DNA of 64,000 nucleotides from Leptolyngbya sp. SIO1E4 (GTDB lineage Bacteria > Cyanobacteriota > Cyanobacteriia > Phormidesmidales > Phormidesmidaceae), in contig JAAHFU020000001.1 in assembly GCA_010672825.2 (NCBI GenBank), forward strand, positions 310,001-374,000, in the 5' to 3' direction. The position numbers and the translations under genes are program-made. The notes beneath the pieces are model-generated. The model had not been told where the DNA came from. It saw only the letters and a program-made list of their open reading frames with translations, and searched no databases. Of the stretch, positions 45,749 through 64,000 are shown piece after piece (within the stretch, counting starts at the first letter, position 1; every line of letters begins with the position of its first letter).

Positions 45749-46927
45749 ATGCGCACAGAATTAGGACCTCCTGATATGACCCGCTATCGTTATCGCTCGC
45801 CCCAAGAGATTCACTTGCTCAGTGTTCTGGCGCAGACAGTCAGTCGACAAGCTAGTGGCTGTTTAAGCGTCACTGATGAAACTCATACCTGGACACTCTA
45901 CCTGGAGCGAGGCCAGCTGATCTATGCCTCCAATTCGCTAGATCCTTTTGGTCGGCTGGATCACCATCTGCGTCGGCTGAGTGCCCAAATTCCGGCACTG
46001 GCCAGCCCGGTGCGAGTACAGGTCAGACTCTTGTTTGAAAAGTCGATGGCAGAGGATATCGGTCGCTGCTGGGACTATGAAGCAATTTGCTGGTTAGTAG
46101 AGCAGCAGTACCTCACACCTCAGCAGGCAGCTGACCTCATCGAAGCATTAGCCAAAGAAGTGTTGGAAACGCTGCTGCCCCTGCATCGAGGAAACTATGA
46201 CTTGTTGGCAAAAGGGCTGCTGGCACAGCTACCTCGGTTCTGTCAGCTAGATTTACGAGTCCTGGTAGAGGCCTGCCATGTCCATCGACTGCGGCAACAG
46301 GCGTCCAATTCAGGCAAGCGTACCGTTAAAGCCCCAGTGCCACCCAGTCCCCCACTGCGGAACCCAAGCGTTCAAGCAAAGCCCGCTCCCTTACAGAACC
46401 CGGCAGCGCAGCCGCAGAGCCCCCCTTTGCAAAACATTGTCGTGCAGCCTGATAAACCGGGGATTCGTCGCTGGAGCCCTCCTGCAGCCCCTGCTTCGAT
46501 GACGCCTGTGACGCCCGTGACCCCGCCCCCAGCGTTGCGATCTCCCGGCACGTTGTCAAAACCGACCTACACCGTTGCCTGTATTGACGACAGCCCGACT
46601 GTTTTGCAGGCGATCGAGGCCTTTTTAGATGACAAAGCCTTTAAGGTTTTACAGATCGAAAATCCAGTCAGCGCGCTGATGAAGATTATCCGCAACAAGC
46701 CGGATCTGATTTTGCTGGACGTAACCATGCCCAACCTGGATGGTTATGAGCTGTGCTCACTCCTCCGACGTCACCCTTCTTTCAAACAGACCCCCATCAT
46801 CATGGTGACCGGTAATACGAGTTTGATTAATCGCGCGAAGGCAAAAATAGTCGGCGCTTCGGGTTATCTGACTAAACCCTTCACGCAGCCAGACCTGCTA
46901 AAAATCGTGTTCAAGCACCTGAAATAG
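45749..46927 (+). CDS. pixG: PatA/PixG-type response regulator (PATAN/DUF4388-REC), locus 1
   Basis: The 392-residue protein has an N-terminal DUF4388/PATAN-type domain (about 10-190; ASGCLSVTDETHTWTLYLERGQLIYASN, CWLVEQQYLTPQQAADL), a proline-rich linker (about 195-268) and a C-terminal receiver domain. In the receiver, IDDSPTVL supplies the acidic pocket, the phosphoacceptor Asp is in LILLDVTMPNLDG and the Lys in YLTKPFT. This is the architecture of PixG, PatA and related cyanobacterial regulators, which in phototaxis act on pilus motility. An AAGG five bases before the ATG at 45749 supports the start, and the same context is conserved at the paralogue (56022). First gene of a G-H-I-J-L-ordered cluster. 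The name is given by order and architecture, not by function test. Confidence 0.82.
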   Translation: MRTELGPPDMTRYRYRSPQEIHLLSVLAQTVSRQASGCLSVTDETHTWTLYLERGQLIYASNSLDPFGRLDHHLRRLSAQIPALASPVRVQVRLLFEKSMAEDIGRCWDYEAICWLVEQQYLTPQQAADLIEALAKEVLETLLPLHRGNYDLLAKGLLAQLPRFCQLDLRVLVEACHVHRLRQQASNSGKRTVKAPVPPSPPLRNPSVQAKPAPLQNPAAQPQSPPLQNIVVQPDKPGIRRWSPPAAPASMTPVTPVTPPPALRSPGTLSKPTYTVACIDDSPTVLQAIEAFLDDKAFKVLQIENPVSALMKIIRNKPDLILLDVTMPNLDGYELCSLLRRHPSFKQTPIIMVTGNTSLINRAKAKIVGASGYLTKPFTQPDLLKIVFKHLK

Positions 46928-47030
46928 ACCTCTTTTACACCTGCTTTCAGCCACGATATCAGCGGCTTAAAGCCCCTAGCTCCCAGCTCAACCTCAGTTT
47001 CTTAATCCAATCAGTTCCTTATTCAAACAG

Positions 47031-47417
47031 ATGACACCCATGAGTATTACGTTGACCCAAACCATCTTGATCGTTGAAGATACCCCTTCTGAAATGGAGC
47101 TTATGAGGTGCTACCTCTTAGAGGATGGCTACACCGTTATCGGTGCAGCAACCGCCCAGGAAGCGATCGATAAAGCTGTGGAGCTTAACCCTGCTGCCAT
47201 TGTTACGGATGTTGTGATGCCGGGTATGAGTGGCTTTGAACTTTGTCGCAGCCTCAAGAAGGCTCCGGCGACAGCCAACATCCCAGTCATCATCTGCTCG
47301 TCTAAAAATCAGGAAATTGACCGGCTATGGGGCATGAAGCAAGGGGCAGATGCTTATATCACGAAGCCCTTTACGCAGTCACAACTGGTTCGAGCGGTCA
47401 AGTCGGTCACATTTTAG
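47031..47417 (+). CDS. pixH: CheY-like response regulator, locus 1
   Basis: The 128-residue single-domain receiver has VEDTPSEM for the acidic pocket, the phosphoacceptor Asp in AIVTDVVMPGMSGFELC and the Lys in AYITKPFTQ. The WGMKQGADAYI phrase is typical of the PilH/PixH branch of cyanobacteria. Start ATG at 47031 or 47040. The PixI-like gene begins four bases after its stop, so the two are surely cotranscribed. It would receive phosphate from the PixL kinase. Confidence 0.85.
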   Translation: MTPMSITLTQTILIVEDTPSEMELMRCYLLEDGYTVIGAATAQEAIDKAVELNPAAIVTDVVMPGMSGFELCRSLKKAPATANIPVIICSSKNQEIDRLWGMKQGADAYITKPFTQSQLVRAVKSVTF

Positions 47418-47421
47418 AAGT

Positions 47422-47928
47422 ATGCATACATCAGCCATCGTTAAACTCTCAACTTCAGCCCCCAAAATGGCCGGGGACGCTTACTTAAAGTTCCATCTAG
47501 ACCCTGAGCAAGCGGCCATCTTCTCAATGCAACATGTTCAGGAAGTATTTACCCTGGCTTTACCACAGCTCACACCGATGCCCAATATGCCCCCTTGTAT
47601 GTTGGGCCTCATCAATCACCGTAACCGTGTTTTATGGGTTGTGGATTTAGCACTGCTGCTCAAGCTAAATCCATTAGATACCGCAGCCCAGCAGTACAAC
47701 TTGATTGTGATTCAGGTTGGGACGCTCAGCTTGGCGCTCGCTGTACAGCAAATTGCCGGAATGACTTGGTTTGAAAGTAATCGGATTCAATTGCCCACAG
47801 GAGGAGCCACTGCTGGGGTCATGCCTTACCTACGAGGCTGCATTTGGCAGGACGAAGCCCCCTTGCTGCTGCTAGATACTGCTGCCATTAGCCAGGCTTC
47901 AATGCTTAGAAACTTAGCACCCTCATAG
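47422..47928 (+). CDS. pixI: CheW-like adaptor, locus 1
   Basis: The 168-residue protein is a CheW domain throughout: YLKFHLDPEQAAIFSMQHVQEVFTL at the start, TPMPNMPPCMLGLINHRNRVLWVVDLALLLKL in the middle, and YNLIVIQVGTLSLALAVQQIAGM. CheW couples the chemoreceptor signalling tip to the CheA kinase. The ATG at 47422 is right after the regulator's stop; the longer frame to 47350 overlaps that gene and is rejected. A 271-base gap separates it from the receptor gene and could hold a second promoter. Confidence 0.88.
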   Translation: MHTSAIVKLSTSAPKMAGDAYLKFHLDPEQAAIFSMQHVQEVFTLALPQLTPMPNMPPCMLGLINHRNRVLWVVDLALLLKLNPLDTAAQQYNLIVIQVGTLSLALAVQQIAGMTWFESNRIQLPTGGATAGVMPYLRGCIWQDEAPLLLLDTAAISQASMLRNLAPS

Positions 47929-48199
47929 GCCAGGCATTTCTGACATACCCGACACCCGCTTATTGCAGTCTGTCACCCGCCCATAGATCGAGCAATAGAG
48001 CTAAACCTGAACCGAGGTTCTAGACACCGATTAAGCACTGACTAAGCGCCTGTAAATACCTTTGCAAACCTGGCTATGGGGCTTTGCCCTCTGGTCTAAT
48101 TTCCCCTGCCATTCACACACCTGCTCCCTGCATCTATCTTTCATGACTCGATTGAGTGCTACACCGCAATTTTCTTAATTTTCTCAAGGATGTTTTGCC

Positions 48200-51100
48200 A
48201 TGACTAATAGCGTTAGCCCCTTATCCCCAATGGGTACCGTTGATGTTCAGCCAACCAAGGCTGCCACTGGCCCCAACGACGCTGCAGCAACGACGAAGGT
48301 GGCTCAAACCCAGGCCGTCTCCCGCCCTGGAACTGATGATGCGTCTTGGCAGCTGACTGCCCAGCAGCCGCCTAAAGCCAGCAGTCTGCGCTTTCAACTG
48401 CTACGCGGCGTTCTACCGGCTGTCTTAGTTCCGCTGGCAATCGCAGGGGTCATGGTACAGCGAGTAGCCCACAATCGGTTAATGCAGGAGACCTCTGAGC
48501 AAGTCAGCAGCAAAGCCCTACTGGCAACAACCCTGACGCCCCGCTATATCAATGAGCTAGAAACGGTGCCCACACTCGTCGCTGACGCTGGCAGCTCTCA
48601 GCAGGTGCAGGTAATCGATGTCAACACGGGTAAGGTGCTGAAAACCCTGGACACCCAAGGCAACAGCGATTCGCAACCCGTCACGGGAGGCAACGCTGTG
48701 GCAGACGCAGCTCAGGGCTTAAGCAAGACGCCCTCGACGGAGCTGGCTCGCAATCGTTTCAAGGCTGAACTGACCACAAAATATGGCTTCAAAAATGTTG
48801 CCCTTGAACCCCTCAACATCGATGCTGCCCAACCGGGCGTCATGCTGTCATTCCAGCATAATCAGCGTCACTACTATCTCTCGACTCAGGCTGCAACGGG
48901 TTTAGTGGCGATCGCCTCAATCGAGACCCGCGAACTCGCCACAGCGGGCAATCAGCTAGCGCTGACGTTCTGTTTGGTCATCCTAGTCGCCGCCGGGGTA
49001 TCTACCGCAATTCTGGCCGGGCTAGTCAATCAGATCTCGAATCCACTGCGCTATCTCTCTAAAACAGCCGAACAGGTCACCGCCGGAAATCTTGATGTCT
49101 TGGCCCCGGCCTACGGTGCCCAAGAAACCCAAACCTTAGCCAACACCTTTAACGCCCTCGTCACCCAGGTCAAAGGGTTTGTACAAGAACAGGCCCAGGG
49201 TGTTGATCAAGCTCGACTGCTCTCAGAAATCGCCGGTTCCCGCGTTTACAATCACAAGAACCTCGCAAAAGTTTTCAACAAAGCCCTCATTGAGACTCGG
49301 ACAGCCTTAGCGGTCGATCGCGTCGTCGTTTATCGCTTTAACTCAGACTGGAGCGGCTACATCTCCCACGAATCCGTGGCCACAGGCTGGCCTGAAGCCC
49401 TCAATGACAAAATTGAAGACCCTTGCATTCCCCTAGAGCTGATCGAGGCTTATCAAAAAGACCGGGTTGTGCCCACCAATGATGTCTTTAATGCAGGCTT
49501 TCATCCCGATCACCTGAAGCTGATGGAGCGGCTGCAAATCAAGGCCAATCTGGTGGTTCCCATCTTGAAAGAGGGGCAGCTCTTTGGCTTACTGATTGCC
49601 CATCATTGCGCAGAAACCCACGCTTGGCAGAACTCAGAAGTGACCTTTATGCGCCAGCTGGCGGCCCAGCTCGGCAATATGTTGGATCAGCTCACCTATC
49701 TGCAAGCCCGCGATGCAGAAACAGAACGGGCAGAGTTCTTAAAAGATTTCACCCTAGAAATTACCCGCGCTGAGACCCCCAATGAAGTCTTGAATAAACT
49801 GCCCCTCAGACGGGTTCGCCAGGCCCTGCAGGTGGATCGGGTCCTGGTCTATCGGTTCGATGAAACCTGGAACGGCACCATCACCCACGAGTCGGTTGCC
49901 CCTGAGTGGCCCCAGGCCATTGGGGCTGAGATCTACGACCCTTGTTTTGAAAAAAACTATGTGGAGAAATATCAACAGGGACGCGTACAGGCAACCGCCG
50001 ATATCTATAACGCTGGCTTGACCGCCTGTCACCTCCAGCAGCTAGAACCCTTTGCCGTTAAAGCAAATCTTGTTGCCCCCATCAAACAAGGGGATACCCT
50101 GCTGGGCCTGTTAGTGGCCCACCAATGCACTAGCCCACGTCAGTGGCAGAAACAGGAAGTTGACTTCTTTACTCAGATTGCCACCCAGATCGGGCTGGCG
50201 CTAGATCGCAGCGAACTGTTGATTCAGAGAGAGGCTGCAGCGGCAGAGGCGCGATCGCTTGCAGCCGAACAGCAGCAGCAAAAAGAAGCGCTACAGCTGC
50301 AGTTAGTCAATCTGCTGGGTGAGGTAGAAGGGGCTGCCAGTGGTGATTTGACCGTGCGTGCCGATGTCACAGCCGATGAAATCGGCACCGTGGCTGACTT
50401 CTTTAACTCCATCATTGAAAGTCTGCGGCAAATTGTGACCCAGGTTAAACACTCAGCGCAGCAGGTCAACCAGTCGGTCGGGCAAAACGAAGCTGCCACT
50501 CGCCAACTAGCCGACAAAGCCCTCGGCCAAGCTGAAGACATCTTTTTGACCCTCAGCTCAGTCGAGAAAATGACCCAGTCTATCCACTCAGTGGCGGAAA
50601 GTGCCCACCAGGCGGCTCAGGTCGCTCGCACGGCTTCGGCCACCGCCGAATCTGGCAGTATTGCCATGGAGCGTACGGAGCGCAATATTCTCATGCTGCG
50701 TGAAACCGTTGGCATGACGGCTAAGCAGGTGAAGCGTCTGGGTGAATCTTCCCAGCAAATCTCGCGGGTAGTCTCCCTGATTAATCAAATTGCGGTTCAA
50801 ACCAACCTGCTCGCCATTAACGCTGGCATTGAAGCAGCCCGCGCTGGGGAAGAGGGGCAAGGCTTCGCGGTGGTTGCTGAAGAAGTGGGTGAACTGGCCA
50901 ACCGCTCAGCTTCGGCCACCCAAGAGATTGAAAAAATCGTCGACGTGATTCAGCGCGAAACCGCTCAAGTGGTGGAGGCCATGGAGCAAAGCACCACACA
51001 GGTAGTTGAGGGCACTCGCCTAGTAGAAGACACCAAAACTAGCCTGGGTCAAATCCTCAAGGTTTCTCGCCAGATTGACCAGCTCGTGCAGTCTATTTCA

Positions 51101-51286
51101 AATGCGACGGTCTCTCAGGTAGAAACCTCCGCAGACGTTTCCCACCTGATGCAAATGGTGGCAGAGGTCTCTAAGCAGACCTCCAACTCATCGTTGCAGG
51201 TATCTGATGCCTTACGCTCCACAGTGGTTATTGCTGAAGAGCTGCAGGCATCCGTTGGCACATTCAAAGTTAACGCTGAGGGGTAA
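48200..51286 (+). CDS. pixJ: Methyl-accepting phototaxis receptor with tandem GAF domains, locus 1
   Basis: The 1028-residue receptor has a long hydrophilic N-terminus, TM1 (about 67-90), a periplasmic domain, TM2 (about 252-275), a HAMP domain (to about 330), GAF1 (about 345-500), GAF2 (about 520-680), a second HAMP-like segment (about 700-755) and a methyl-accepting signalling domain with the tip [39 protein letters not shown]2 has DPCF (Cys582) and ACH (Cys610), 28 residues apart, the arrangement of DXCF cyanobacteriochromes. GAF1 keeps DPC (Cys409) but has Asp437 where the chromophore Cys should be. The order resembles PixJ, whose second GAF binds bilin. AAGGA lies about 9 bases before the ATG at 48200. 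The kinase gene follows after five bases. Confidence 0.88.
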   Translation: MTNSVSPLSPMGTVDVQPTKAATGPNDAAATTKVAQTQAVSRPGTDDASWQLTAQQPPKASSLRFQLLRGVLPAVLVPLAIAGVMVQRVAHNRLMQETSEQVSSKALLATTLTPRYINELETVPTLVADAGSSQQVQVIDVNTGKVLKTLDTQGNSDSQPVTGGNAVADAAQGLSKTPSTELARNRFKAELTTKYGFKNVALEPLNIDAAQPGVMLSFQHNQRHYYLSTQAATGLVAIASIETRELATAGNQLALTFCLVILVAAGVSTAILAGLVNQISNPLRYLSKTAEQVTAGNLDVLAPAYGAQETQTLANTFNALVTQVKGFVQEQAQGVDQARLLSEIAGSRVYNHKNLAKVFNKALIETRTALAVDRVVVYRFNSDWSGYISHESVATGWPEALNDKIEDPCIPLELIEAYQKDRVVPTNDVFNAGFHPDHLKLMERLQIKANLVVPILKEGQLFGLLIAHHCAETHAWQNSEVTFMRQLAAQLGNMLDQLTYLQARDAETERAEFLKDFTLEITRAETPNEVLNKLPLRRVRQALQVDRVLVYRFDETWNGTITHESVAPEWPQAIGAEIYDPCFEKNYVEKYQQGRVQATADIYNAGLTACHLQQLEPFAVKANLVAPIKQGDTLLGLLVAHQCTSPRQWQKQEVDFFTQIATQIGLALDRSELLIQREAAAAEARSLAAEQQQQKEALQLQLVNLLGEVEGAASGDLTVRADVTADEIGTVADFFNSIIESLRQIVTQVKHSAQQVNQSVGQNEAATRQLADKALGQAEDIFLTLSSVEKMTQSIHSVAESAHQAAQVARTASATAESGSIAMERTERNILMLRETVGMTAKQVKRLGESSQQISRVVSLINQIAVQTNLLAINAGIEAARAGEEGQGFAVVAEEVGELANRSASATQEIEKIVDVIQRETAQVVEAMEQSTTQVVEGTRLVEDTKTSLGQILKVSRQIDQLVQSISNATVSQVETSADVSHLMQMVAEVSKQTSNSSLQVSDALRSTVVIAEELQASVGTFKVNAEG

Positions 51287-51291
51287 TTACG

Positions 51292-54200
51292 ATGTCTGAT
51301 GCGAGGGAACTAGAAATTAAGCGACAGTTTCTGGATGAAGCCCAGGAATATCTCCGCCCGTTAGAGGCCGCGCTATTAGGGGTTGCCCAGGGCCAAGTAG
51401 AGACTGCAAAAATGAACGGTGCACTGCGGGCCGCCCATTCCATCAAAGGGGGTGCAGGGATGATGGGCTATCCGGTGCTGAATCAGCTAGCCCATAAGCT
51501 AGAGGATTCCTTCAAAGTGTTAAAGCTGCAAAAGCAGCAAATAGAGATAGACGCAGCGTTAGAGCAGCAGTTGCTGGCAGCCGTTGACTGTCTGGGCCAG
51601 GTTATTGCCTGGCACCAACAGCAGAAGCCGGTTCAGCCGTCATGGGTAGAGCGCCATGCCATGCCGATTTTTGAGCAGCTGCACCAGCGTCTGGGCGAAC
51701 CGCAAGCCGAAGACGCTACTTCGATGCTGTCGCCCGAAGATGGCCAGAACATTATCCCGATGCTGTTTGAGACGGAGGTGGAAGGCTGTTTACAGCGCCT
51801 AGAGACGATCTTGGCCGATCCACAACAGCCCTGTCTCAATGAAGAGGTGATCATCCTGGCGCAGGAGTTGGCGGGCCTTGGCGAGATGTTACAGCTCACT
51901 GCGTTTACGACCTTATGCCATTCGGTGGTAGCGCAGTTGGAAGCTGCCCCTGAACAGCAGGAACAGATCGCCCAGCAGGCTGTGGCCGCCTGGCGGCGAT
52001 CGCAGGCCCTGGTGCTGACCGGGCAACTTGAGCTGTTACCCACAGCGATCACGGCAGCGCCTTCCCCAGACAGCCCCACAGCAGAGGCCGTTGCCGCCCC
52101 TCAATTCATCCCAGTCAATGGGGATACCTTTGAGGCCCAGATACCATCCCCCGTGGCGGCATTCCCTGAGGTTTCAGTGGCAGCCGAAGTGGTCACCGAT
52201 GCCCCCACCTTAGCTGAGCCTTCCTTAGCTGAGCCCTCCTTAGCTGAGCCCACGTTAGAAGCCGCAGCACCAAAGGCATCCACTCGTCGCTTTAAGGTGC
52301 TCGCGACTCCCCCTGTTGGCCCATCGTCGGAGGCTGCAGAGCGAAACACCACTGTGCGGGTTTCCGCTCAGCGGCTCAATGCGCTTAACGATCTGATGGG
52401 TGAACTCACCACCGAGCGCAATGGCCTGACACTCAACGTCAACCGGCTGCGCAGCCTCGTAGACATGCTCAAACAGCGAGCCCTAACCCTCGAAACCGCC
52501 AATAGCCAGCTACGAGCTATCTACGATCAAGTCTCTATTGGCCAATCCCTGGCGATGTCAGCGCGGCAACCTGCCACCCCCGCCAAGAACGGCAGCCCTA
52601 ACCACGGGTCACTGCCTGCCCACGACCACACCTTCGATACCCTGGAGATGGATCGCTACAGCGACCTGCATCTGCTCTCCCAGGAGATGATGGAAACTAT
52701 CGTCCAAATTCAGGAAGTCACAACCGACATCGAACTCGAACTGGAAGACACGGAACAAACGGGGCGGAGCTTCAACAAAACGGGCAAGCAGCTACAAAAT
52801 AAACTCACCCAAATGCGGATGCGCCCACTATCTGATGGGCTAGAGCGCTTTCCACGCGCCCTGCGGGAACTGTGCCTGCAACATGGCAAAGAGGCGGAGC
52901 TAAAAGTGGTGGGTGGCCAGACTCTGATTGACCGCAATATCTTAGAAACCCTGACCGACCCGCTGATGCACTTGTTGCGCAACGCTTTTGATCACGGACT
53001 CGAAGATCCCGAAACGCGCATGGCCGCGGGTAAGTCGCGCCAGGGTCTTATTGAGATCAGCGCCACCCATCGCCATAATCGCACCGTCATTACCGTGAAG
53101 GATGATGGTCGTGGCATTCCCCTCGAAAAGATTCGGCAGCGGGCTGAACAAATGGGGCTAGACGCGGATCTGCTGGCCGCAGCCAGCGAGCCAGAACTGC
53201 TGTCACTGATTTTTGAACCGGGCTTTTCGACATCGGCAGCCGTCACCGATCTCTCGGGTCGAGGCGTTGGGATGGATGTCGTGCGCAACAATCTGCAGCA
53301 GGTGCGGGGTGAAATCACGGTGGAGACTGACCCAGGTCAGGGAACCACCTTTACTCTCTCGGTTCCCTTTACCCTCTCGGTCGCTCGCATCCTTTTGGCC
53401 GAAAGCCAGACGATGGCCCTCGCCATTCCTACCGATACGCTGGAAGAAATTTTGGTGCTACCACCAGACGATATTGCCTCCGCCACCCAAAAGAAAACAT
53501 TGAAATGGGGCGATCATGACATTCCGTTGATCCAGCTCTCCCACTGGCTAACTTTTAATGGGGCTCGCCCGACCTACAGGCTCGAACTCCCGCCAACAAT
53601 CGATGCCTTCACGGTTTTGATCGTCAATTATGGGGGGCAGCCGGTGGGGTTACAGGTCGATCGCTGCTGGGGAGAACAAGAAGTCGCAATCCGCCGAGTC
53701 GAGGGAGATTTGCCCTTACCACCGGGCTTTAGCAACTGCACAATTTTGGGAGATGGTCGCGTTGTTCCGCTGGTAAGCATTCCAGAGCTACTGCGCTGGA
53801 TTACTAGTCAGCAGCGATCGTCGCTTGCCGATCCGCCATCTCCCGCCAGCCTCCCTTCCCCGTTTGCAGATCATTTCCATCGACAATCGGGAACGCTGGC
53901 GTCTCAAGTCGCGCCGACTCGGCCTAGCCTGCTGATTGTAGATGACTCCATCAATGTCCGACGGTTCCTGGCCTTGACCCTAGAAAAAGTGGGCTATCGG
54001 GTTGAACAAGCCCGGGACGGACAGGATGCCCTGGACAAATTACACAATGGCCTGTGGCCCCAGGCCATCATCTGCGACATTGAAATGCCCCGGCTCGATG
54101 GCTTTGGGTTTCTGGCAAAAGCAAAAGCCGATACCAACACGGCCCCTATTCCGGTGATCATGCTAACGTCCCGGAATAGTCAGAAGCATCGCCAACTCGC

Positions 54201-54294
54201 GATGGGCCTCGGCGCAACCGCCTATTTCTCTAAACCCTATAACGAACACATCCTCCTGCAGACGCTAGAGCAGTTGGTTGACGCCGCCGCTTAA
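51292..54294 (+). CDS. pixL: CheA-like hybrid histidine kinase, locus 1
   Basis: The 1000-residue kinase starts with an Hpt domain (His49 in RAAHSIKGGAGMMG), then a second region with a degenerate Hpt-like helix bundle (EDGQNIIPMLFETEVEGCLQRLE) and a linker with three AEPSL repeats. Next come the dimerisation helices, the ATP-binding domain (HLLRNAFDHGLED, KDDGRGIPLEK, DLSGRGVGMDVV, GQGTTFTLSVPF), a CheW-like regulatory domain and a C-terminal receiver (Asp in AIICDIEMPRLDG, Lys in YFSKPY). It phosphorylates PixG/PixH-type regulators in response to the receptor. The layout is that of PixL. A strong terminator follows at 54329-54364. Confidence 0.9.
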   Translation: MSDARELEIKRQFLDEAQEYLRPLEAALLGVAQGQVETAKMNGALRAAHSIKGGAGMMGYPVLNQLAHKLEDSFKVLKLQKQQIEIDAALEQQLLAAVDCLGQVIAWHQQQKPVQPSWVERHAMPIFEQLHQRLGEPQAEDATSMLSPEDGQNIIPMLFETEVEGCLQRLETILADPQQPCLNEEVIILAQELAGLGEMLQLTAFTTLCHSVVAQLEAAPEQQEQIAQQAVAAWRRSQALVLTGQLELLPTAITAAPSPDSPTAEAVAAPQFIPVNGDTFEAQIPSPVAAFPEVSVAAEVVTDAPTLAEPSLAEPSLAEPTLEAAAPKASTRRFKVLATPPVGPSSEAAERNTTVRVSAQRLNALNDLMGELTTERNGLTLNVNRLRSLVDMLKQRALTLETANSQLRAIYDQVSIGQSLAMSARQPATPAKNGSPNHGSLPAHDHTFDTLEMDRYSDLHLLSQEMMETIVQIQEVTTDIELELEDTEQTGRSFNKTGKQLQNKLTQMRMRPLSDGLERFPRALRELCLQHGKEAELKVVGGQTLIDRNILETLTDPLMHLLRNAFDHGLEDPETRMAAGKSRQGLIEISATHRHNRTVITVKDDGRGIPLEKIRQRAEQMGLDADLLAAASEPELLSLIFEPGFSTSAAVTDLSGRGVGMDVVRNNLQQVRGEITVETDPGQGTTFTLSVPFTLSVARILLAESQTMALAIPTDTLEEILVLPPDDIASATQKKTLKWGDHDIPLIQLSHWLTFNGARPTYRLELPPTIDAFTVLIVNYGGQPVGLQVDRCWGEQEVAIRRVEGDLPLPPGFSNCTILGDGRVVPLVSIPELLRWITSQQRSSLADPPSPASLPSPFADHFHRQSGTLASQVAPTRPSLLIVDDSINVRRFLALTLEKVGYRVEQARDGQDALDKLHNGLWPQAIICDIEMPRLDGFGFLAKAKADTNTAPIPVIMLTSRNSQKHRQLAMGLGATAYFSKPYNEHILLQTLEQLVDAAA
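52210..52254 (+). repeat. 15-bp coding tandem repeat in pixL locus 1
   Basis: TTAGCTGAGCCTTCC and two near copies (52210-52224, 52225-52239, 52240-52254) encode three Leu-Ala-Glu-Pro-Ser/Thr blocks in the linker before the dimerisation domain. Repeat-number variation would keep frame. Confidence 0.85.
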
Positions 54295-54328
54295 CATCAC
54301 CTTCTTTCAATAGGTTTCCAACACCCTT

Positions 54329-54364
54329 CAAGCTTGCGCCTTCCGGTGCGAGCTTGTTTGTTTT
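54329..54364 (+). terminator. Rho-independent terminator after pixL locus 1
   Basis: Arm CAAGCTTGCGCC, loop TTCC, arm GGTGCGAGCTTG with two G-U wobbles, followed by TTTGTTTT. It lies 35 bases after the kinase stop and probably ends the first pix transcript. Confidence 0.85.
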
Positions 54365-54721
54365 GCGCGCAGCCTTGATCGCATCCACAGCACAAGCTGC
54401 TTGCCTGTCGAACTCACGCCTACCTACGCATCCGCCTTGATCATCCACCAGACGGGTTGTTAAACTTTATACTCTGACTAACCCTAAAATGGAGAGGCAA
54501 CATGCCCACATTTTAAGCTCAGCAAACTAGCATGGAGTTAACTCTCTGACGACAATATAGACGGTAAAATACAGACGACAATTTATACCAATAGGTTCCA
54601 GGGTCAGTTCGCTTCACAGCTCACTTTTCTCGGTGTAATCAAATTTTCTAGGGAAGTGAAACCAAAGAGCCCCTGATAAACAGTAAGTTTTGCAAGTCAA
54701 TTAAAGGGCATCTCCATTTAA

Positions 54722-54763: not shown

Positions 54764-55202
54764 AAGTAGGCGTACTTTGTTACTTTGGACAAGGCCATCG
54801 CTTTATATAAAGGAGATATGATCGCTTCAGAATCGTATGCAAATCCAGTCAATTTATTTTTTTTGATTTGTCCAGTCTGTCATCACCTGGATTGATAATG
54901 TTTCAGCATCAATCATCAAAATAGTTTGGTAAAAATTGATTTCAGAACCAAAAATACTCCCAAAAACAACCTCTGATGCAGTTATTTGATTGTTAAGAAA
55001 AGGAAAATTCGCGTCCCTGAATTGACGTCGTATTGACCGTTAACCTAGTATCAGAGTCATAAGCCCCTATGATCAAACTAGCTTTACGGAGCCTAGCTGA
55101 GTAGCCCCATTCAGCTAAAAAGAATTTACCCAGTTTCTTTTTGTAGTCTGTGTCACTATCCAGAAGGTTTTCAGAGAACAACTGAGCCTCGCATTCTACC
55201 GT

Positions 55203-55262
55203 TAACAATCAGGGCAATTTTAGAGATTAAAAGCTGCACTCTACTGTTTTCTTCAGAAAAGT
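55203..55262 (+). promoter_or_regulatory. Upstream element shared by the two pix loci, copy 2
   Basis: Counterpart of 45045-45105: AACAATCAGGGCAATTTT followed by AAAGCTGCACTCTACTG and CTTCAGAAAAG. It lies about 800 bases before the second pixG-like start. Similarity in non-coding DNA between paralogous clusters suggests an old common regulatory or RNA element. Confidence 0.5.
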
Positions 55263-56021
55263 GTCCAAGATTTTTGCAGGAAACAGGCTTCCTCTCTAGA
55301 CGGATTAAAGCGAGCAAAAGTAATTCCTGATTGGCAGCATTTTGGCATCTCCCAAGGATGGCCAGATAGTTGCCTAAGGTGTTCTTAAATACAAAATATA
55401 AGCTAAACACTGATTAGCTTTGCTCAAAGAGTATTTGAATAATAGCCTTATCTATTTTTAGGCTGTTATTTAACCTCTTTTGACTGAGTTTTATGCCTTT
55501 ATGCAGAGGCAGTCTAATGGACAATGTGTCCTGATGGCTGATGCATTTCGCTGAAGTTTTAGGAGCTGGCTGACCCACAAAACACTTGGGCCAAATTAGA
55601 CGGAACGCAGCAAATCCCGACCGTAGACGAAGTCTTGCTGGGGCTGCTAACGCTAAACCGGTTGCCAAAATTTACGAGATCCCACCGTTAAACCTGTCAG
55701 GTTTTGGGTTCTTTGATCAGTCAACCAGACCCTTTAGGGCACCCATCAAAGACTATCAGTCAATGCCGTGTTTAAATCCTTACGGGTTTTAAGCGCTAAC
55801 GATAGTCTCGTCGCTCCTATACGGATCGTTTTAGACCGCCGATCGCAGAAGACCCATTGAGGCAGCTTTTGCCCACACGCGACGACGGACATTCAGGGTT
55901 TCAGCATCTCCTCAAACAACTGTCGAGCGCTTGCATCGACTAGGGGAACAAGTCAGGTCAGTAAGCCTCCCTGACTGCTCCCTTAGCTGACCTTTATGTT
56001 ATTGAGGCGGATAAGGCTGAA

Positions 56022-57125
56022 ATGCGCACAGGATTAGGAACTTCTGATATGACCAGCTACCGTTATCGCTCTCCCCAAGAGCTTCATTTGCTCAGTGTTC
56101 TGGCGCAGACGGTCAGTCGACAAGCCAGTGGCTGTTTAAGCGTCACTGATGCAACCAATACCTGGAAACTCTACCTCGAGCAAGGCCAGCTGGTCTATGC
56201 CTCTAATTCGTTAGATCCCTTTGGTCGACTGGATCGCCATCTGCGTCGGCTGGGTGCCAAAATCCCGGCACTGGCCAGCCCCGTGCGGGTACAGGTAAGA
56301 CTCTTGTTCGAAAAGACAGCCGAAGAAGCAGATGCCAACCATTGTTGGGACTACGAAGCGGTTTGCTGGTTAGTCGAGCAGCAATATCTCACCCCGCCGC
56401 AGGCAGCTGAACTGATTGAAGGATTAGCCAAAGAGGTTTTGGAAACGCTACTGCCCCTGCGCCTGGGGAACTACGATTTGTTAGCCACAGGGCTGCTGGC
56501 ACAGCTACCTCGGTTCTGCCAGCTAGATTTACGGGCGTTGGTAGAGGCGTGTCAGGCGCGTCGGCTCCGGCAACAGACTGCCAATTCGGCCAAGAGCGTC
56601 CCCAAATCTCCCCTATCACGCAGTTCCCGACTGAAACCCTCCATCGTTCAACCCGAGAGCCCCCAACCTCAGAGTGTGAGTCGGCCTTCAGCACCAGCAT
56701 CTGCAGGGCGAGGAACCGCGCCTACGCGAGAGTCGCGATCGCCCCGATTGCGGGAAAAGACCACCTACACCGTTGCCTGCATTGACGACAGCCCGACCGT
56801 CTTGCATGCGATCGAAGCCTTCTTAGAGGACAAAGCCTTCAAGGTTTTGCGCATCGAAGATCCGATTAGCGCGCTGATGAAGATTATCCGCAATAACCCA
56901 GATCTCATCTTGCTAGATGTGACCATGCCCAACTTAGACGGCTATGAGTTGTGCTCACTGCTCCGACGTCATCCCTCCTTCAAACAAACCCCCATCATTA
57001 TGGTGACCGGCAATACAGGTCTGATTAATCGCGCTAAAGCAAAGCTAGTGGGTGCTTCGGGTTATCTGACTAAACCTTTCACGCAATCTGACCTGCTTAA
57101 AACCGTCTTTAAGCATTTGAATTGA
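56022..57125 (+). CDS. pixG: PatA/PixG-type response regulator (PATAN/DUF4388-REC), locus 2
   Basis: The 367-residue paralogue of the 45749 gene is nearly identical in its PATAN part (MRTGLGTSDMTSYRYRSPQE against MRTELGPPDMTRYRYRSPQE) and in the receiver (LILLDVTMPNLDGYELC, GASGYLTKPFTQ), with a shorter and less proline-rich linker. One notable change is an EADANHCWDYEAV insert of a few residues before the middle helices. The same AAGG-CTGAA-ATG context is present. It opens the second G-H-I-J-L cluster and presumably partners with the kinase at 62006. Confidence 0.82.
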   Translation: MRTGLGTSDMTSYRYRSPQELHLLSVLAQTVSRQASGCLSVTDATNTWKLYLEQGQLVYASNSLDPFGRLDRHLRRLGAKIPALASPVRVQVRLLFEKTAEEADANHCWDYEAVCWLVEQQYLTPPQAAELIEGLAKEVLETLLPLRLGNYDLLATGLLAQLPRFCQLDLRALVEACQARRLRQQTANSAKSVPKSPLSRSSRLKPSIVQPESPQPQSVSRPSAPASAGRGTAPTRESRSPRLREKTTYTVACIDDSPTVLHAIEAFLEDKAFKVLRIEDPISALMKIIRNNPDLILLDVTMPNLDGYELCSLLRRHPSFKQTPIIMVTGNTGLINRAKAKLVGASGYLTKPFTQSDLLKTVFKHLN

Positions 57126-57270
57126 ACCCCAGTCTTCATTGAGAGATGAGAGAGTCGTCATTCTGGCCAGCCTCGCTGATTCGTCATCGTTATCTGGGTG
57201 CTGCCAGTCGACAGCCTTGCAGCGTTTTAGTTGCCGTTGCCCAGTTGTCAATACCTTAAGGAAAGAAATT

Positions 57271-57657
57271 ATGCAGACCACTCTGACCGGCACTGTCTTA
57301 GTCGTCGACGATACCCCTTCCGAGATGGCGCTCATGAGCCACTACCTGCGTGAAAGGGGGTGCTTGGTGATTACCACCAACAGCGCCCGAGAGGCTCTGA
57401 CCAAAGCCGCTCAGCAACAGCCCGACGTTATTGTGACGGACGTGGTAATGCCGGGAATGAGCGGGTTTGAACTCTGTCGCAGCCTGAAAAAACATCCTGA
57501 AACAGCCCATGTGCCGATCGTGATCTGTACCTCCAAAAGCAACGATATTGATCGCCTGTGGGGCATGAGACAAGGGGCGGATGCTTACCTCACTAAACCG
57601 TATACCCAAGAACAACTGGTGCAGGTCGTGAGTTCAGTCATGAAGGGGAATCGATGA
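57271..57657 (+). CDS. pixH: CheY-like response regulator, locus 2
   Basis: The 128-residue receiver from the ATG at 57271 (AAGGAAAG upstream; the open frame reaches back to 57139 without conserved content) has VDDTPSEM, the phosphoacceptor Asp in VIVTDVVMPGMSGFELC and the Lys in AYLTKPYTQ, closely matching the locus 1 regulator. Its stop overlaps the start of the CheW-like gene (ATGA), a sign of translational coupling. Confidence 0.85.
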   Translation: MQTTLTGTVLVVDDTPSEMALMSHYLRERGCLVITTNSAREALTKAAQQQPDVIVTDVVMPGMSGFELCRSLKKHPETAHVPIVICTSKSNDIDRLWGMRQGADAYLTKPYTQEQLVQVVSSVMKGNR

Positions 57658-58187
57658 ATTTAACTGACGCTAAATCCCAAGAATCAGGGCAGATTGTCTC
57701 CAGCGTAGGAACGGCTCTGGCCCCTAAGCGGACAGTCCGATATGCCCACAGCTATGTAAAATTCCGCCTCGGCCATCAATGGGCTCTACTGCCGACCCAT
57801 CAAGTGCTGGAAGCGATTACGGTACCTACTGCCAGCGTTACGCCGATGCCCAATATGCCCGCTGCCATATTGGGGCTTATCAATCGCCGGAGTCAGGTGC
57901 TGTGGGTTACAGACCTGACGTTACTCCTTGGAATGCCGGCTGCCTATCTCAACTCTCAACAATACAACCTGGTACTGCTGCAGATTGGTCATGTCCTGAT
58001 AGGGCTACAGGTTCAGGAGATTGAAGGCATTCTGAGCATTCCTCCCGATCAAATTTGTGCTGCCCCGGCCAATATTCCAGCCGGGATAGCCCCGTTTTTA
58101 CAGGGATGCTTTCTCCAAAACAATGACGTGGTGCTAGTGCTGAATGCTGAAGCGGTGCTGCGAGCGCCAGCACTCCAGCCTAGGTAG
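57654..58187 (+). CDS. pixI: CheW-like adaptor, locus 2
   Basis: The 177-residue CheW domain has a short extra N-terminus. The conserved core is VKFRLGHQWALLPTHQVLEAI, TPMPNMPAAILGLINRRSQVLWVTDLTLLLGM, YNLVLLQIGHVLIGLQVQEIEGIL and APFLQGCFLQNNDVVLVLNAEAVL. The start overlaps the preceding stop by four bases. The 161-base gap to the receptor gene resembles the larger gap in locus 1. Confidence 0.88.
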   Translation: MNLTDAKSQESGQIVSSVGTALAPKRTVRYAHSYVKFRLGHQWALLPTHQVLEAITVPTASVTPMPNMPAAILGLINRRSQVLWVTDLTLLLGMPAAYLNSQQYNLVLLQIGHVLIGLQVQEIEGILSIPPDQICAAPANIPAGIAPFLQGCFLQNNDVVLVLNAEAVLRAPALQPR

Positions 58188-58348
58188 ATACCACTCTCGA
58201 TGCTGTGCCCTTGGGTTGAGCCGTCACTCATCTGATCCAGAGTTCATGGTTTCCGCTGAGAACGCTTGTCAAGGTCGCATCTATCTACCCCCAAACCACT
58301 TTACTGCGCGTACACACGACTCTTCCTTATTGTGAGGTTAGCTGACCT

Positions 58349-61300
58349 ATGACTACAGAATTTCCCCCCTCTTCTCGCAATCTGTCTGCCAATGTCACTG
58401 AAGGGACTAGCGAGATAAACGGCACCCGCATCTTTAACGACAACGATACCCATAATACAAACGGGGCGAATGGCAAGATGAGTCGTGACAAAAGCGAGAA
58501 TCTGTTGGCTGTTGATGCTAACCCTACCGCCACCAATGATCGCACCCCCCCCCCTAATACAGACACAGACCCTAAAATGACGGTGACCCAGCCGACCCGC
58601 TTCCGGTGGCTGCAGTGGTTAAGTAACTTCAAACTGGGTCAAAAGCAGTTAATTAGTATCTTGGCCACAGAACTCATCGCAGTCGTCGGTCTGGTGGGGG
58701 CGGGGTCATTTCTAATTATCACGAACGGTCGCAGTGAACTCGCTGAACAGGCAAAATCTGAGCTGGCACTCCAGGAAACTGAATACAACATCAAAATTGA
58801 CCAGATGGGGCTGGGCTTCCGAAACCAGTCGAACAACAGCGCTCTTGTCGATGTCGCCCAACTCTATGCCGAGGGTGAGAGTCCTTCAACCGCAGCGATC
58901 GCGGCTACACGCCAGCTGCTAGAAAACACGCTCGAGACCTATCAAATCGAGTACGCCACCCTGGTAGGGGATGATCTCAGAATTATCGCCAGCGCTAATG
59001 GCGATCGCGCCGGAGAAAAATTCGATCCTCAAGGGCTGGTGGGCACGGTACTTCAAAATCCTCGTCAGGTGAAGGTGAGCGCCATTGTTAGCCAGGCCGA
59101 ACTGCAAAACGAGCAGCCCTCGCTACCCACAAACTTCTCAGGCGAAGACGCTCTGATCCGCTACACGCTGACCCCAATCACCGATCCAACCTCGGGTACC
59201 GCCCTTGGCGTCCTGGTCTCTGGCGATATCGTCAACGGCAAGCCAGCCATTGTTGAAAACACCTTAAACTCCTTTGAAACTGGCTATAGCGCCATCTACC
59301 AGTACCAAGCAGACGGGGGCTTCACCCTCGCCACATCCCTGAATATCCCTGACGGGGGCGCAGCCGCAGCCAACATTTCTTTAGAAACCTCAGATTTGTT
59401 AGAACAGGCCACTGCAGCGGATGGAGAAGTGGTGTCGGGTCGAGCCCCCATCGGGGACGAAACCTATACCCTGGCCGCTAAAGCGATTGAAAACTTCAAC
59501 GGTGAGCCCGTCGCCATCCTCGTACGAGGAACCTCTGAAGCCTCCCTCAACGCCCTGGTGAGCCACAGTCTCAAATTACAGCTGGGGGTCGCTGCGATCG
59601 CCTTAACCGGCAGTATGATTCTGGCCCAGCTGCTGGGTCGCTCTATTTTGAAGCGCGTGAAAAACCTGCATCAAGCAGCCTGGCAATTTGGCATGGGCGA
59701 TCGCAGCGTCCGTGCTGACATTTTCTCGACTGACGAACTAGGCCAGGTCGCCCAGTCCTTTAACCAGCTCGCCGACAACATCACCAACTCAGAAGCTCTG
59801 CTACAGCAGCAAAAGGAGCGCCAGGGGGCCAACGCCAACCGCGCCCGCTTACTCGCTGACCTGACCACCCGCATTCGTCAATCCCTCGACCCCGCAACCA
59901 TCGTCGACACTGCCGTAGAGGGCATTAAAGGGGTTCTGGCCGTTGATCGCGTCCTGTTCTACCGCTTCAACACTGACCTCACCAGCGGCGAGATTACATC
60001 TGAAGCCGTGGATCGTCCCTGGAAACAAGCAAAAGGCTCAACGATTGAAGATCCCCTCACCCCAGAGGCCCTGGCCCGCTACCGGACAGGCCAGGTCACT
60101 TACATGGAAAATCGAGAGCAGGCCAAAATTTCCCACTGCCACTGTGAAATTCTGGAGCGCTTAGAGGTTAAAGCCAACATGGTGGCTCCTCTGTCAGTGG
60201 GAGACGCACTCCTCGGTTTGCTCTGCGTGCACAAATGTTCGGCCCCCCACAAGTGGGAACCCGAAGAAATTGACCTGCTACAGCAGCTGGCCGTTCAAAT
60301 TAGTGCAGCTTTAACCCAAGCGCGTTTGCTAACCGAACAACGCAAAACCGTTGCTCGAGAACGACAGCTGGCTGAAATCACCGGCCTAATCCGTCAGTCC
60401 CTTGACGAAGAAAGCATCTTCGCCACCTCGGTCGAGGGCTTGCGAGAAGTCCTCAACGTCGATCGAATGCTGATTTACCGCTTCAGTTCCGACTTCAAAA
60501 GCGGTGAAATTACAGCCGAATCGGTAGTGGGCGATTGGGTAAGAGCCAAAGGAACGCTGATTGAAGATCCGCTGACGCCGGAAGATTTGGAACGCTACTA
60601 CACCGGCCACGTCACCTACCGAGAAGACCGGAACAACGAACACGAAGCTGGGGCCATCACCCACTGCCACTGCGCCATTTTAGAGCGGCTACAGGTACAG
60701 GCCAACATGGTCGCTCCCCTGTTTGTAGGCGATAACCTCATCGGGTTACTCTGTGCCCACCAATGCTCTGGCCCCCGTCGCTGGGATGAGCTCGAAATCA
60801 ACTTCGTCAAGCAGGTCGCCATCCAACTCGGCTTCGCCGTAGAACAGGCTCGCTTATTTTCTCAAACCCAGGCCCTCTCAGAAGAACATCTGCTGCGAGA
60901 GCAGGAGCTACAGGCCCAGCTCGTACAGTTGCTCACCGATGTAGAAGGGGCGTCCCAGGGTGACCTCACCGTCCGAGCTGATGTGACCGCAGGCGAAATT
61001 GGCACCGTAGCTGACTTCTTTAATGCCATTGTGGAAAGCTTGCGTCAGATCGTCATCAAGGTGAAGCAGTCAGCCGAACTGGTAAACGTCTCGGTCGGAG
61101 AAAACGAAGGCGCCGTCGAAAGCCTGGCCCAAGACGCGCTCAAACAAGCCGAAGAGGTCACCCATATTCTGACACCCTTAGACCAAATGACCCGGTCTAT
61201 TCAGCAAGTGGCAGATAGTGCCCAGCAGACCGCGCTTGTGGCTAACAATGCCTCTAGCACTGCCGAAACGAGCGGTCAGGCGATGGACCTAACGGTGCAG

Positions 61301-61897
61301 AACATCCTCAACCTGCGGGAAATCATTGGCGAAACCTCCAAAAAAGTGAAGCGTCTTGGGGAGTCATCTCAGCAAATTTCTAAGGTGGTGTCCCTGATTA
61401 ATCAAATCGCCATGCAGACTAACTTATTAGCAATTAACGCGGGCATTGAAGCAGCCAGGGCTGGAGAAGAAGGTCAAGGATTTGCAGTAGTGGCTGAAGA
61501 AGTCGGTGAACTGGCCGCCCGTTCTGCCGATGCGACCCAGGAAATTGAGCGGATTGTCGAAACCATTCAGCGGGAAACCGTCGAGGTCGTCGACGCAATG
61601 GAGCAGAGCACAACTGAAGTGGTTGCCGGGACTCGCCTGGTAGAAGACGCCAAGCAAAACCTGAGTCGCATTTTAGAGGTTTCCATGGAGATCGATGAGC
61701 TAGCGCAGTCTGTTTCTGAAGCCACCGTTTCCCAAGTGGAGGTGTCTGAAACAGTCACCTATCTGATGCAGGACATTGCCCAGGTCTCAAGGCGGACCTC
61801 TGAGTCTTCATTGCAAATCTCCGATTCCCTGCGGCAGACCATTAATGTGGCCCGAGCCCTTCAAGAATCTGTCGGGATGTTCAAGACAGGTGAGTAG
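58349..61897 (+). CDS. pixJ: Methyl-accepting receptor with Cache-like and tandem GAF domains, locus 2
   Basis: The 1182-residue receptor has a hydrophilic N-terminus containing a ten-C coding tract, TM1 (about 101-124), a periplasmic Cache-like domain of about 275 residues ([38 protein letters not shown]), TM2 (about 408-430), HAMP (to about 490), GAF1 (about 500-660), GAF2 (about 670-835), a second HAMP-like segment and a methyl-accepting domain with a near-identical tip to locus 1. Both GAF domains have HCHC (Cys597-His598 and Cys773-His774) at the chromophore-Cys position but DPLT instead of DPCF, so they are not DXCF-type. Whether they bind bilin is unknown. The periplasmic domain suggests an additional chemical input. 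Confidence 0.85.
58545..58554 (+). repeat. Homopolymeric C10 tract inside pixJ locus 2
   Basis: Ten consecutive C residues (58545-58554) encode part of Thr-Pro-Pro-Pro in the N-terminal tail before TM1. Slippage would shift the frame early and truncate the receptor. Confidence 0.9.
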
Positions 61898-62005
61898 CGG
61901 CAGGGAGATTGGGAAGTCAGGGGGTAGATTCAACGCTCCCCCGTTTCCCCCTCCCGCTTTTCCCTTGCGTCTTTCCCCTTGCACTGGTCTTCATTGATAT
62001 ACGCT

Positions 62006-64000
62006 ATGGTTGACGACAAAGAGCTTGAAATCCGGCTTCAGTTTCTTGACGAGGCCCAGGAATATTTAAATACCCTGGAAACGCGCCTGATGGGTTTAAC
62101 CCAGGGCTTTGATGGGGAAACAATTAACGATGCCTTGCGGGCAGCCCATTCCATTAAAGGCGGTGCCGCACTGATGGGGCTACAAACCTTAAGTGAGCTG
62201 GCTCACCGGCTAGAAGATGGCCTCAAGGTTCTTAAAATCCAGCGGAGCAAAGTGACCGTTGATGCCAGCCTAGAACAGCAGCTCATGGCTGCTGTTGACT
62301 GTATGGGACAGGTGATGCGGCAGAGTCATCGGCATCTGCTGCAGGGCCAGGATGACCCCACGCCGGTGGATCAAGTCTGGCTGCAGCAGCAGGTAGATCC
62401 CATTTTTGACGAGCTACATCAGCGTTTAGGGGATCCAGAAGAGGAAGATGCCTATTCAATGCTGTCTCCCGAAGACGGTCAAGACATTATTCCCTTGCTG
62501 TTTCAAAGCGAAGTGGAAGGCTGCCTACAGCGCCTGGAATCTGTCCTGGCAGATCGCTCTCCCCGCCTGCGAGAGGAAGTGCAGATTTTAGCTCAAGAGC
62601 TGGGCGGTCTGGGAGAAATGCTACAGCTAGCAGCCTTTAGTCGATTATGTCAGTCCATCGACGACCAGGTCGGAATTGCCACAGATGACCAGTTGCTATC
62701 AGCCTCTCAAGCAGCGCTAGACACCTGGCGGCAGGTTCAAGGATTAGTCCTGAGCGGCAACCTGGGGGCAATTCCAGATCAGTTCATGGGCAGCCAAGAT
62801 GCTGTCGTCGAAGCTGCCTCTGACGCGCCCTCTGACGCACCCTCTGACGCGCAAGTGGTTGAACCTCTGTCTGAAGAGTGGCCAGACTATCCAGACGAAC
62901 TGGAGGTCTTCGACGATGCAGTCGATGAAGACATTGAAGTCGATGAAGACATTACGGAAACGCTATATTCCACTTCACCCATCGCTACCGCTACCCCCGG
63001 GTTCTTCCCCAATTCTTCTGAGACGACAGAGGCAGTTACCCCTGAGAGCATCAATACCGAGGCCTTTAACGCTTTTGATACTGCATCCGAGGCGATCCCT
63101 GATTCAGCTGCAGCGGGTTCAACAGCTCAGATGCCGCCGAGTACAGAAGACCCCTCTCCACCTGAGACAGGCCCTGTCCCCGACAGCACGGTGCGAGTGC
63201 CTGTCAAACAAATCAACCAGCTCAGTGACCTGTTTGGAGAACTGATTATCGAGCGCAACCGCCTGGAACTAGAAGTGAAGCGGTTGCGCCATTTAGTCGG
63301 AACGTTACAGGGTCGAATGCGCACGTTGGATCACGTCAATGGTGATTTGCGGAACGCCTACGACCGAGTCGCTACCCAAAGCGAATCTCCCTTATCACAA
63401 TCCATCAATGTCTCTGGGGAGGAGGATCCAAACCAGCAATTCGATGTTTTGGAATTAGATCGCTACCGAGAACAACATCTGCCATTCCGCGAGATTATTG
63501 AAACCATTGTTCAACTGCAGGAAGTCGGGGATGACATTGATCTGTCCCTAGACCAGACAGAACAAACGACCCGCAGCTTGCGCAAGACCTCCCGTCAGCT
63601 GCAAAAGTATCTGACCCAACTGCGCATGCGTCCCCTTTCTGACGTGTTCGATCGCTTCCCTCGGGCACTACGGCAAATGTCGCTGCAGTACGACAAGCCG
63701 GTAGAACTCCAGTTACAAGGGGAGCGGACGCTGGTGGATCGCAATGTCTTAGAGGCCCTGCAGGAACCGTTGATGCATATCATCCGCAACTGCTTTGACC
63801 ACGGCATTGAAGAGAAGGAAACGCGCCAGCAACGGAATAAATCTGCCACGGGCACGATCGCCATTTCGGCCTATCAGCGGAGTGGCCGCACCATTATCAC
63901 GATTCGAGATGATGGGAGCGGCATTCCCCTCGAGAAAGTTCGCGATCGCGCTTGCCAGATGGGCCTCGATGAAACCCTATTAGCCGCTGCCAGCAAACAA
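62006..64000 (+). CDS. pixL: CheA-like kinase, locus 2 (3' truncated by window end)
   Basis: The frame opens at the ATG at 62006 (MVDDKELEIRLQFLDEAQEY) and stays open for 665 codons to the window end. It contains an Hpt domain (His48 in RAAHSIKGGAALMG), a second degenerate Hpt-like bundle (EDGQDIIPLLFQSEVEGCLQRLE), an acidic linker with a triple SDAP repeat at 62819-62852, the dimerisation segment and the first part of the ATP-binding domain (LMHIIRNCFDHGIEEKETR, IRDDGSGIPLEK). The CheW and receiver domains are expected beyond the window. It is paralogous to the kinase at 51292 and separated from its receptor gene by 108 bases, with no strong terminator. Confidence 0.88.
   Translation, partial: MVDDKELEIRLQFLDEAQEYLNTLETRLMGLTQGFDGETINDALRAAHSIKGGAALMGLQTLSELAHRLEDGLKVLKIQRSKVTVDASLEQQLMAAVDCMGQVMRQSHRHLLQGQDDPTPVDQVWLQQQVDPIFDELHQRLGDPEEEDAYSMLSPEDGQDIIPLLFQSEVEGCLQRLESVLADRSPRLREEVQILAQELGGLGEMLQLAAFSRLCQSIDDQVGIATDDQLLSASQAALDTWRQVQGLVLSGNLGAIPDQFMGSQDAVVEAASDAPSDAPSDAQVVEPLSEEWPDYPDELEVFDDAVDEDIEVDEDITETLYSTSPIATATPGFFPNSSETTEAVTPESINTEAFNAFDTASEAIPDSAAAGSTAQMPPSTEDPSPPETGPVPDSTVRVPVKQINQLSDLFGELIIERNRLELEVKRLRHLVGTLQGRMRTLDHVNGDLRNAYDRVATQSESPLSQSINVSGEEDPNQQFDVLELDRYREQHLPFREIIETIVQLQEVGDDIDLSLDQTEQTTRSLRKTSRQLQKYLTQLRMRPLSDVFDRFPRALRQMSLQYDKPVELQLQGERTLVDRNVLEALQEPLMHIIRNCFDHGIEEKETRQQRNKSATGTIAISAYQRSGRTIITIRDDGSGIPLEKVRDRACQMGLDETLLAAASKQ

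Follow-up and report, generated by a model that had tools for sequence, protein, structure and literature searches.

Tandem pix-type loci of separate ancestry have a recently shared pixG in Leptolyngbya sp. SIO1E4

The genome of the cyanobacterium Leptolyngbya sp. SIO1E4 carries two pix-type signalling loci in direct tandem whose receptor, CheW and kinase genes belong to separate orthologous lineages, while the response regulator gene pixG, and only that gene, has been shared between them recently. Both lie in a 64,000-nucleotide stretch of DNA, here called the window (C1:310001-374000 of the 8.22-Mb, 12-contig genome). We think it probable that two inputs of xenologous origin, separated by colour, meet here at a single exchangeable output regulator. 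The histories of both loci are well supported, and from them we infer how they may function. It is a long-standing question how kindred signalling pathways within a cell escape cross-talk or make use of it, and this region offers a direct test: three or four components have been kept apart, one has been made alike, and the photoreceptor types are split to match. The region predicts which phosphotransfers cross and which do not, and it bears on how filaments might balance one light signal against another at a single pilus motor.

The two H-I-J-L sets belong to separate lineages

Gene calls rest on a list of open reading frames (ORFs) and a Pfam domain search, which bear out the two tandem pix-type loci and their common G-H-I-J-L order as given by the initial annotation, with locus 2 extending past the window. 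Each locus encodes a PATAN-REC protein, a CheY, a CheW, a methyl-accepting chemotaxis protein (MCP) receptor and a hybrid CheA in one operon-like run, which is the pix/tax1-type arrangement. A cyanobacteriochrome GAF with the canonical cysteine, as expected of such receptors, was found in PixJ1 (GAF2) and in PixJ2 (GAF1 and GAF2).

The first tree sets contained loci above length and score limits, and split or truncated ORFs were dropped. Three duplicate fetches (L017, L060, L061) and one empty flank (L062) were left out of the trees, as was L041, where genome G168 has a further G-H pair but no I, J or L. The sets held 56 and then 72 rows for PixG, 56 each for PixH and PixI, 51 for PixJ, and 51 and then 70 for PixL; larger H, I, J and W sets were also built, of which only J was reused, for the GAF table. 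The final PixG tree contains 35 of the 72 PixG rows, chosen by hand; quick PixG trees were made beside it, and the PixG grouping described below comes from both. The rpoB tree contains 29 of 30 rows, G005 being left out as it is in two pieces.

Locus 1 paired with Leptolyngbyaceae RM1_1_2 in the trees of PixL (support 100), PixI (99), PixH (97) and PixJ (100). The PixL, PixI, PixH and PixJ proteins of locus 2 fell with Oscillatoria CS-180, genus g12 and genome G013, and the same locus-1 versus locus-2 grouping of PixL was seen in the enlarged PixL tree. In the rpoB tree the nearest neighbour of this genome was the genus of CS-180; G010 came next, followed by G013 together with g12, and RM1_1_2 was remote. 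As the rpoB tree agrees with locus 2 and not with locus 1, locus 2 follows species descent and locus 1 does not. Trees constrained to pair the two copies were rejected for PixL (p 5.85e-6), PixI (p 7.2e-19) and PixJ (p 3.4e-5); for PixH, a short protein, the rejection was weak (p 0.04); PixG alone behaves as a local tandem duplicate would, the copies being mutual closest relatives.

Every component is homologous between the loci, as the initial annotation held, but the degrees of likeness are very unequal: amino-acid identity is 79% for PixG, 64% for PixH, 36% for PixI, 43% for PixJ and 54% for PixL. Agreement at fourfold-degenerate sites is 14/44 for pixH, 6/31 for pixI, 88/241 for pixJ and 101/280 for pixL, a range of 19-37% that lies near the 0.26-0.30 expected from base make-up. 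For scale, rpoB agrees with that of the nearest sampled relative, CS-180, at 183/518 such sites (35%), PixL1 with RM1_1_2 at 35%, and PixL2 with CS-180 at 34%. The cytoplasmic tips of the two receptors are very similar, as had been noted, with 96% identity over 45 residues against 69% to a third MCP of this genome. The same had been said of the CheA Hpt domains, which is overstated, as their identity of 61.5% is not above that of the kinase domain (65.6%).

The identical gene order and the homology of every component speak for a single local tandem duplication of the whole locus, after which receptor, kinase and CheW would have diverged fast with PixG under strong selection. This is the origin that the initial annotation implied, and it is extremely improbable. 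The H, I, J and L orthologues lie in different genomes, and the constrained trees rule out whole-locus duplication for J, I and L. Selection on the protein, moreover, cannot raise fourfold identity, nor is there any such rise in the MCP tip, which is conserved to the same degree. The paralogue trees that had been proposed as a check thus gave separate lineages, the outcome named as refuting local duplication, for J, I and L and weakly for H, and the opposite for PixG.

Outside this genome the double locus was not encountered in the family: 38 of the 63 family genomes, many of them drafts, match PixL1/PixL2 at E <= 1e-150 with 12-13 candidates scored per genome, and none of the others has the two genes within 20 kb. 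The class-wide PixL search scored 2 candidates per genome and may therefore have overlooked double loci beyond the family.

PixG is the recently shared component

The two pixG genes agree at 90/144 fourfold-degenerate sites (62%), and at 21/26 (81%) over the first 60 codons. An internal control was provided by the MCP tip, in which one 60-codon stretch has 87% amino-acid identity yet 38% agreement at fourfold sites. The fourfold match of pixG exceeds that to any orthologue, so the sharing of sequence between PixG1 and PixG2 postdates the split from any sampled relative; the other components are saturated. A blastn comparison found the pixG tract to be the only recently shared stretch between the loci. 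Its ends are sharp, and its silent sites are closer within the genome than to any orthologue, as expected of gene conversion. Within the protein, identity is 90% between the REC domains and 83% between the PATAN domains, and the interdomain linker is much less alike. The REC domains of the two PixH proteins are 64% identical. Upstream, no shared promoter was detected past 39 bp, the best remaining local match being at chance level (10 of 200 shuffles as good).

In the tree of 35 PixG sequences, PixG1 and PixG2 were sisters (support 99/96), followed by RM1_1_2 and then CS-180. These four formed one clade (100/100) beside the PixG of family f24, with those of g12 and G013 placed elsewhere, although the branching of RM1_1_2 relative to CS-180 was weakly supported (86/38). 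The PATAN and REC halves, treed separately, each recovered the four-member clade at 99. Placing PixG2 and CS-180 among the native locus-2 PixG was rejected (p 1.75e-5), as was placing PixG2 alone (3.1e-5) or CS-180 alone (3.1e-4) there, and grouping PixG2 with CS-180 was weakly rejected (0.034). Together the tree and the constraint tests indicate that locus 2, in CS-180 as well as here, has received a locus-1-type pixG in place of its native one. The initial annotation had raised the question of cross-talk or insulation between the loci. That question is real, and it becomes sharper with only PixG recently shared: exchange at PixG, separation elsewhere.

An apparent absence of pixG from one genus was discarded, being due to a strict E-value limit; pixG is present there. 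Separately, the second PixG-PixH pair of G168 (L041) has no I, J or L in the fetched 20 kb, and a complete pix locus lies on another contig of that genome.

Photoreceptor types are split between PixJ1 and PixJ2

The claim that the receptors have different inputs holds. GAF1 of PixJ1 has no canonical cysteine, and GAF2 carries DPCF plus the canonical cysteine; both GAF domains of PixJ2 read HCHC, with DXCF in neither. A DXCF cyanobacteriochrome, the blue/green type, with the second and the canonical cysteine in the same GAF, is thus present in PixJ1 (GAF2) and not in PixJ2. The Cache-like domain of PixJ2 is a dCache_3 (E 5.1e-7, past its cut-off), whereas the small periplasmic part of PixJ1, about 165 residues by eye, gave no Pfam sensor match. 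The best matches of PixJ1 GAF2 among solved sequences in the PDB are 3vv4, 6p58, 2m7u and 4fof, which we take to be the Thermosynechococcus PixJ GAF; PixJ2 GAF1 also has PDB sequence matches.

We tabulated 134 GAF domains from 69 PixJ proteins. Among the other locus-2-type PixJ, DXCF (as DPCF) was the second GAF in 14 of 14 and a CHC GAF was the first in 12 of 14. GAF2 of PixJ2 was the sister of its own GAF1 (support 83) inside the locus-2 first-GAF clade (97), and a position among the DXCF GAFs was rejected (p 7.9e-5): the DXCF GAF of this receptor has been exchanged for a CHC GAF. PixJ1 and its RM1_1_2 counterpart both have a cysteine-less first GAF followed by a DXCF GAF. We also considered PixJ1 GAF1 as a decayed CHC GAF, which was ruled out; it is a distinct cysteine-less GAF type common to RM1_1_2 and five other long PixJ. 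Relatives hold both GAF types in one receptor; here the types are split, with DXCF in PixJ1 only and CHC in PixJ2 only.

In two g12 genomes (G011 and G034; loci L075 and L079) the CHC cysteine is gone from GAF1 of PixJ, a mirror of the DXCF loss in PixJ2.

Origin of the double locus

In many genomes a cellulose-synthase-like block precedes pixG, and bcsA was found upstream of pixG on the same strand in 33 of the 82 loci probed, native relatives being among the 33; the 82 include some truncated contigs and repeated fetches of a locus. The block is divergent, with its porin gene adjoining pixG, in this genome, RM1_1_2 and CS-180, as well as in three f24 loci (L032, L034, L036). The bcsB genes of this genome, RM1_1_2 and CS-180 group together (100), outside the clade formed by the native family sequences. 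Three forms of the locus can be written accordingly: bcs-G-HIJL1 in RM1_1_2, bcs-G-HIJLW2 in CS-180, and bcs-G-HIJL1-G-HIJLW2 here, where W2 is a second CheW-like gene. One route is that recombination at pixG brought the foreign block next to the native one, with later loss of HIJL1 from between the two pixG copies in CS-180; the other is that both single forms are older than the double one. The downstream flanks of the loci, when compared, had no shared neighbours.

The observed order, with a pixG copy on either side of HIJL1, is what would result if pixG-HIJL1, borne on a circle or a fragment, had inserted by recombination into the pixG of a bcs-pixG-HIJLW2 locus. PixG2 would then be a by-product of insertion, its likeness to PixG1 would have no functional meaning, and the systems may be insulated. 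Both single forms exist, in CS-180 and RM1_1_2, and the shared tract is just pixG, as this route predicts. However, the donor pixG must already have been close to the resident one; an RM1_1_2-like donor predicts that PixG1 is nearest to RM1_1_2, while PixG1 is nearest to PixG2 (a PixG1 plus RM1_1_2 grouping was not rejected, p 0.105); and the separation of the GAF types would be a coincidence. We regard this explanation as rather unlikely, though it is the closest of the alternatives.

The two HIJL lineages might instead be ancient cyanobacterial paralogues that were lost from most genomes, with no transfer. Locus-1-type components do sit in a broad clade of other families, which differential loss could give. 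RM1_1_2, though, is remote in the rpoB tree yet close for bcsB, PixG and HIJL1, and no pair within 20 kb was found in the 62 other family genomes; we therefore judge this reading quite unlikely.

Our preferred explanation, two inputs of separate origin joined at PixG, would unfold as follows. Locus 2 (H-I-J-L-W) would be the native system of the family, and locus 1 (G-H-I-J-L) with the upstream divergent bcs block would have come from another lineage. When the foreign and native blocks joined, the native pixG of locus 2 would have been replaced by the locus-1 type, and both pixG copies would have exchanged sequence again after this genome parted from its sampled relatives. PixJ2 would have lost its DXCF GAF, with a copy of its own CHC GAF taking its place, and PixJ1 would have kept DXCF alone.

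A candidate circuit with two inputs and one regulator

In Synechocystis, PixG that has been phosphorylated binds PilC and PilB1 at the leading pole, with PixH as its antagonist (PMC12288463). PixJ1 of that species is a blue/green photoreceptor whose chromophore is bound by the second GAF only (PMC5812497), as predicted for PixJ1 here. The tax1 locus (pixGHIJL) resembles the present loci in gene content, in its PATAN-CheY PixG and CheY PixH, and in a receptor with two transmembrane segments, two GAFs and an MCP domain (same source). Synechocystis differs in having a single such locus with one cyanobacteriochrome receptor, the tax2 and tax3 receptors being without cyanobacteriochrome domains (PMC5812497); here both tandem receptors have cyanobacteriochrome-type GAFs, and PixG is recently shared.

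We propose that PixJ1 would pass a blue/green light signal to PixI1-PixL1, and that the input of PixJ2 to PixI2(W2)-PixL2 would consist of a different light signal together with one from the periplasm. Each pathway would keep its own receptor, adaptor, kinase and PixH, but both kinases would feed a practically common PixG pool and through it act on a single motor for pilus extension. A search of this genome turned up a single PilB-like gene and also PilT-like genes, and the loci may steer type IV pilus phototaxis. We put forward more tentatively that this is a natural two-colour, one-output circuit, in which two phototaxis operons of unlike descent came together, their GAF types were divided between the receptors, and gene conversion holds PixG common; evolution would then part the pathways at receptor, kinase and CheW and actively keep them from parting at the regulator that faces the motor.

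The lack of likeness between the pixG promoter regions beyond 39 bp, together with the strong differences in PixH, I, J and L, would also suit a pair of insulated circuits, each with its own output, in which locus 2 might not direct pili and the PixG copies would be set apart by time or place of expression. With PixG so alike in both its REC and PATAN domains separate targets are unlikely, and with a single PilB-like gene found we consider such insulation unlikely as well.

Several points weigh against a common PixG pool fed by two lineages. The rejection for PixH is weak, RM1_1_2 is a metagenome bin, and the sister grouping of the two PixJ2 GAFs has a support of just 83. As the PixG1 plus RM1_1_2 grouping was not rejected, the descent of PixG may be partly vertical within locus 1. 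Both loci occur in 1 of 63 family genomes, so repeated exchange lacks a second double-locus genome for comparison. The identity of the PixG copies is no proof that both kinases phosphorylate both copies, nor can identity alone tell whether selection keeps PixG common or the likeness followed from the way in which the loci were joined. A colour split is what we infer from the GAF types. Finally, receptor tips so alike make mixed arrays possible, which would weaken the separation upstream.

The ptx system of Nostoc punctiforme is similar in that an MCP receptor with several bilin GAFs (PtxD) and CheY, CheW and CheA homologues steer phototaxis (PMC5812497). PtxD combines several colours in one receptor with seven GAFs, whereas here the GAF types are split over two receptors and two operons. 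Duplicated two-component systems of alpha-proteobacteria likewise place related pathways in one cell and raise the question of cross-talk; there the paralogous pathways are reported to become insulated after duplication (PMC9208753), whereas here lineages met late, the regulator was made alike and the rest stayed apart. The literature searched, with limited coverage of subscription journals, held no description of tandem pix loci or of PixG conversion, which is not proof of absence.

Gene layout and neighbouring systems

Table 1. Features of the two pix-type loci and the adjoining block (window positions)
Feature	Position	Strand	Description
pixG1	45749..46927	+	PATAN-REC response regulator (output); Pfam DUF4388 and Response_reg
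pixH1	47031..47417	+	CheY-like REC
pixI1	47422..47928	+	CheW; ORF listed from 47350, ATG near 47422 likelier (by eye)
pixJ1	48200..51286	+	Receptor: periplasmic part, HAMP, 2 GAF, MCP
pixL1	51292..54294	+	CheA: Hpt, HATPase, CheW, REC
pixG2	56022..57125	+	PATAN and REC (Pfam)
pixH2	about 57271..57657	+	CheY-like REC; ORF listed from 57139, start trimmed to ATG
pixI2	57654..58187	+	CheW
pixJ2	58349..61897	+	Receptor: dCache_3 periplasmic domain, HAMP, two CHC-type GAFs, MCP
pixL2	62006..64000, cut at window end; full gene to C1:375089 (window scale 65089)	+	CheA: Hpt, HATPase, CheW, REC
W2	65099-65638 on window scale (C1:375099-375638; L010:3099-3638), outside window		Second CheW-like gene, after pixL2
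Recently shared tract	45710-46927 and 55983-57125	+	blastn limits: ~39 bp upstream of pixG start to pixG end
Cellulose-synthase-like block	34176..43223	-	bcsA, bcsB, TPR, porin; divergent from pixG1

The gene names in the bcs block are presumptive, having been assigned by similarity plus recall. W2 is also present in the locus-2 loci of CS-180 and g12, with more diverged copies in other families, and a counterpart is absent after PixL1 and in RM1_1_2. In the W2 tree the copy of this genome grouped with CS-180 and g12 at 99, and the G013 copy fell outside that group.

Across cyanobacteria bcsA is a frequent neighbour of pixG, which hints at joint control of motility and polysaccharide. Two further chemosensory systems are encoded in the SIO1E4 genome (G000 C1:2156521-2157728 and C2:1827017-1828767); one consists of adjacent MCP and Hpt genes, and the other has three Hpt domains in a single frame. 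In two other genomes, G331 and G159 (L127:179 onward; L130:11438), a different CheA-type gene lies directly upstream of pixG, so that chemosensory systems stand side by side there too.

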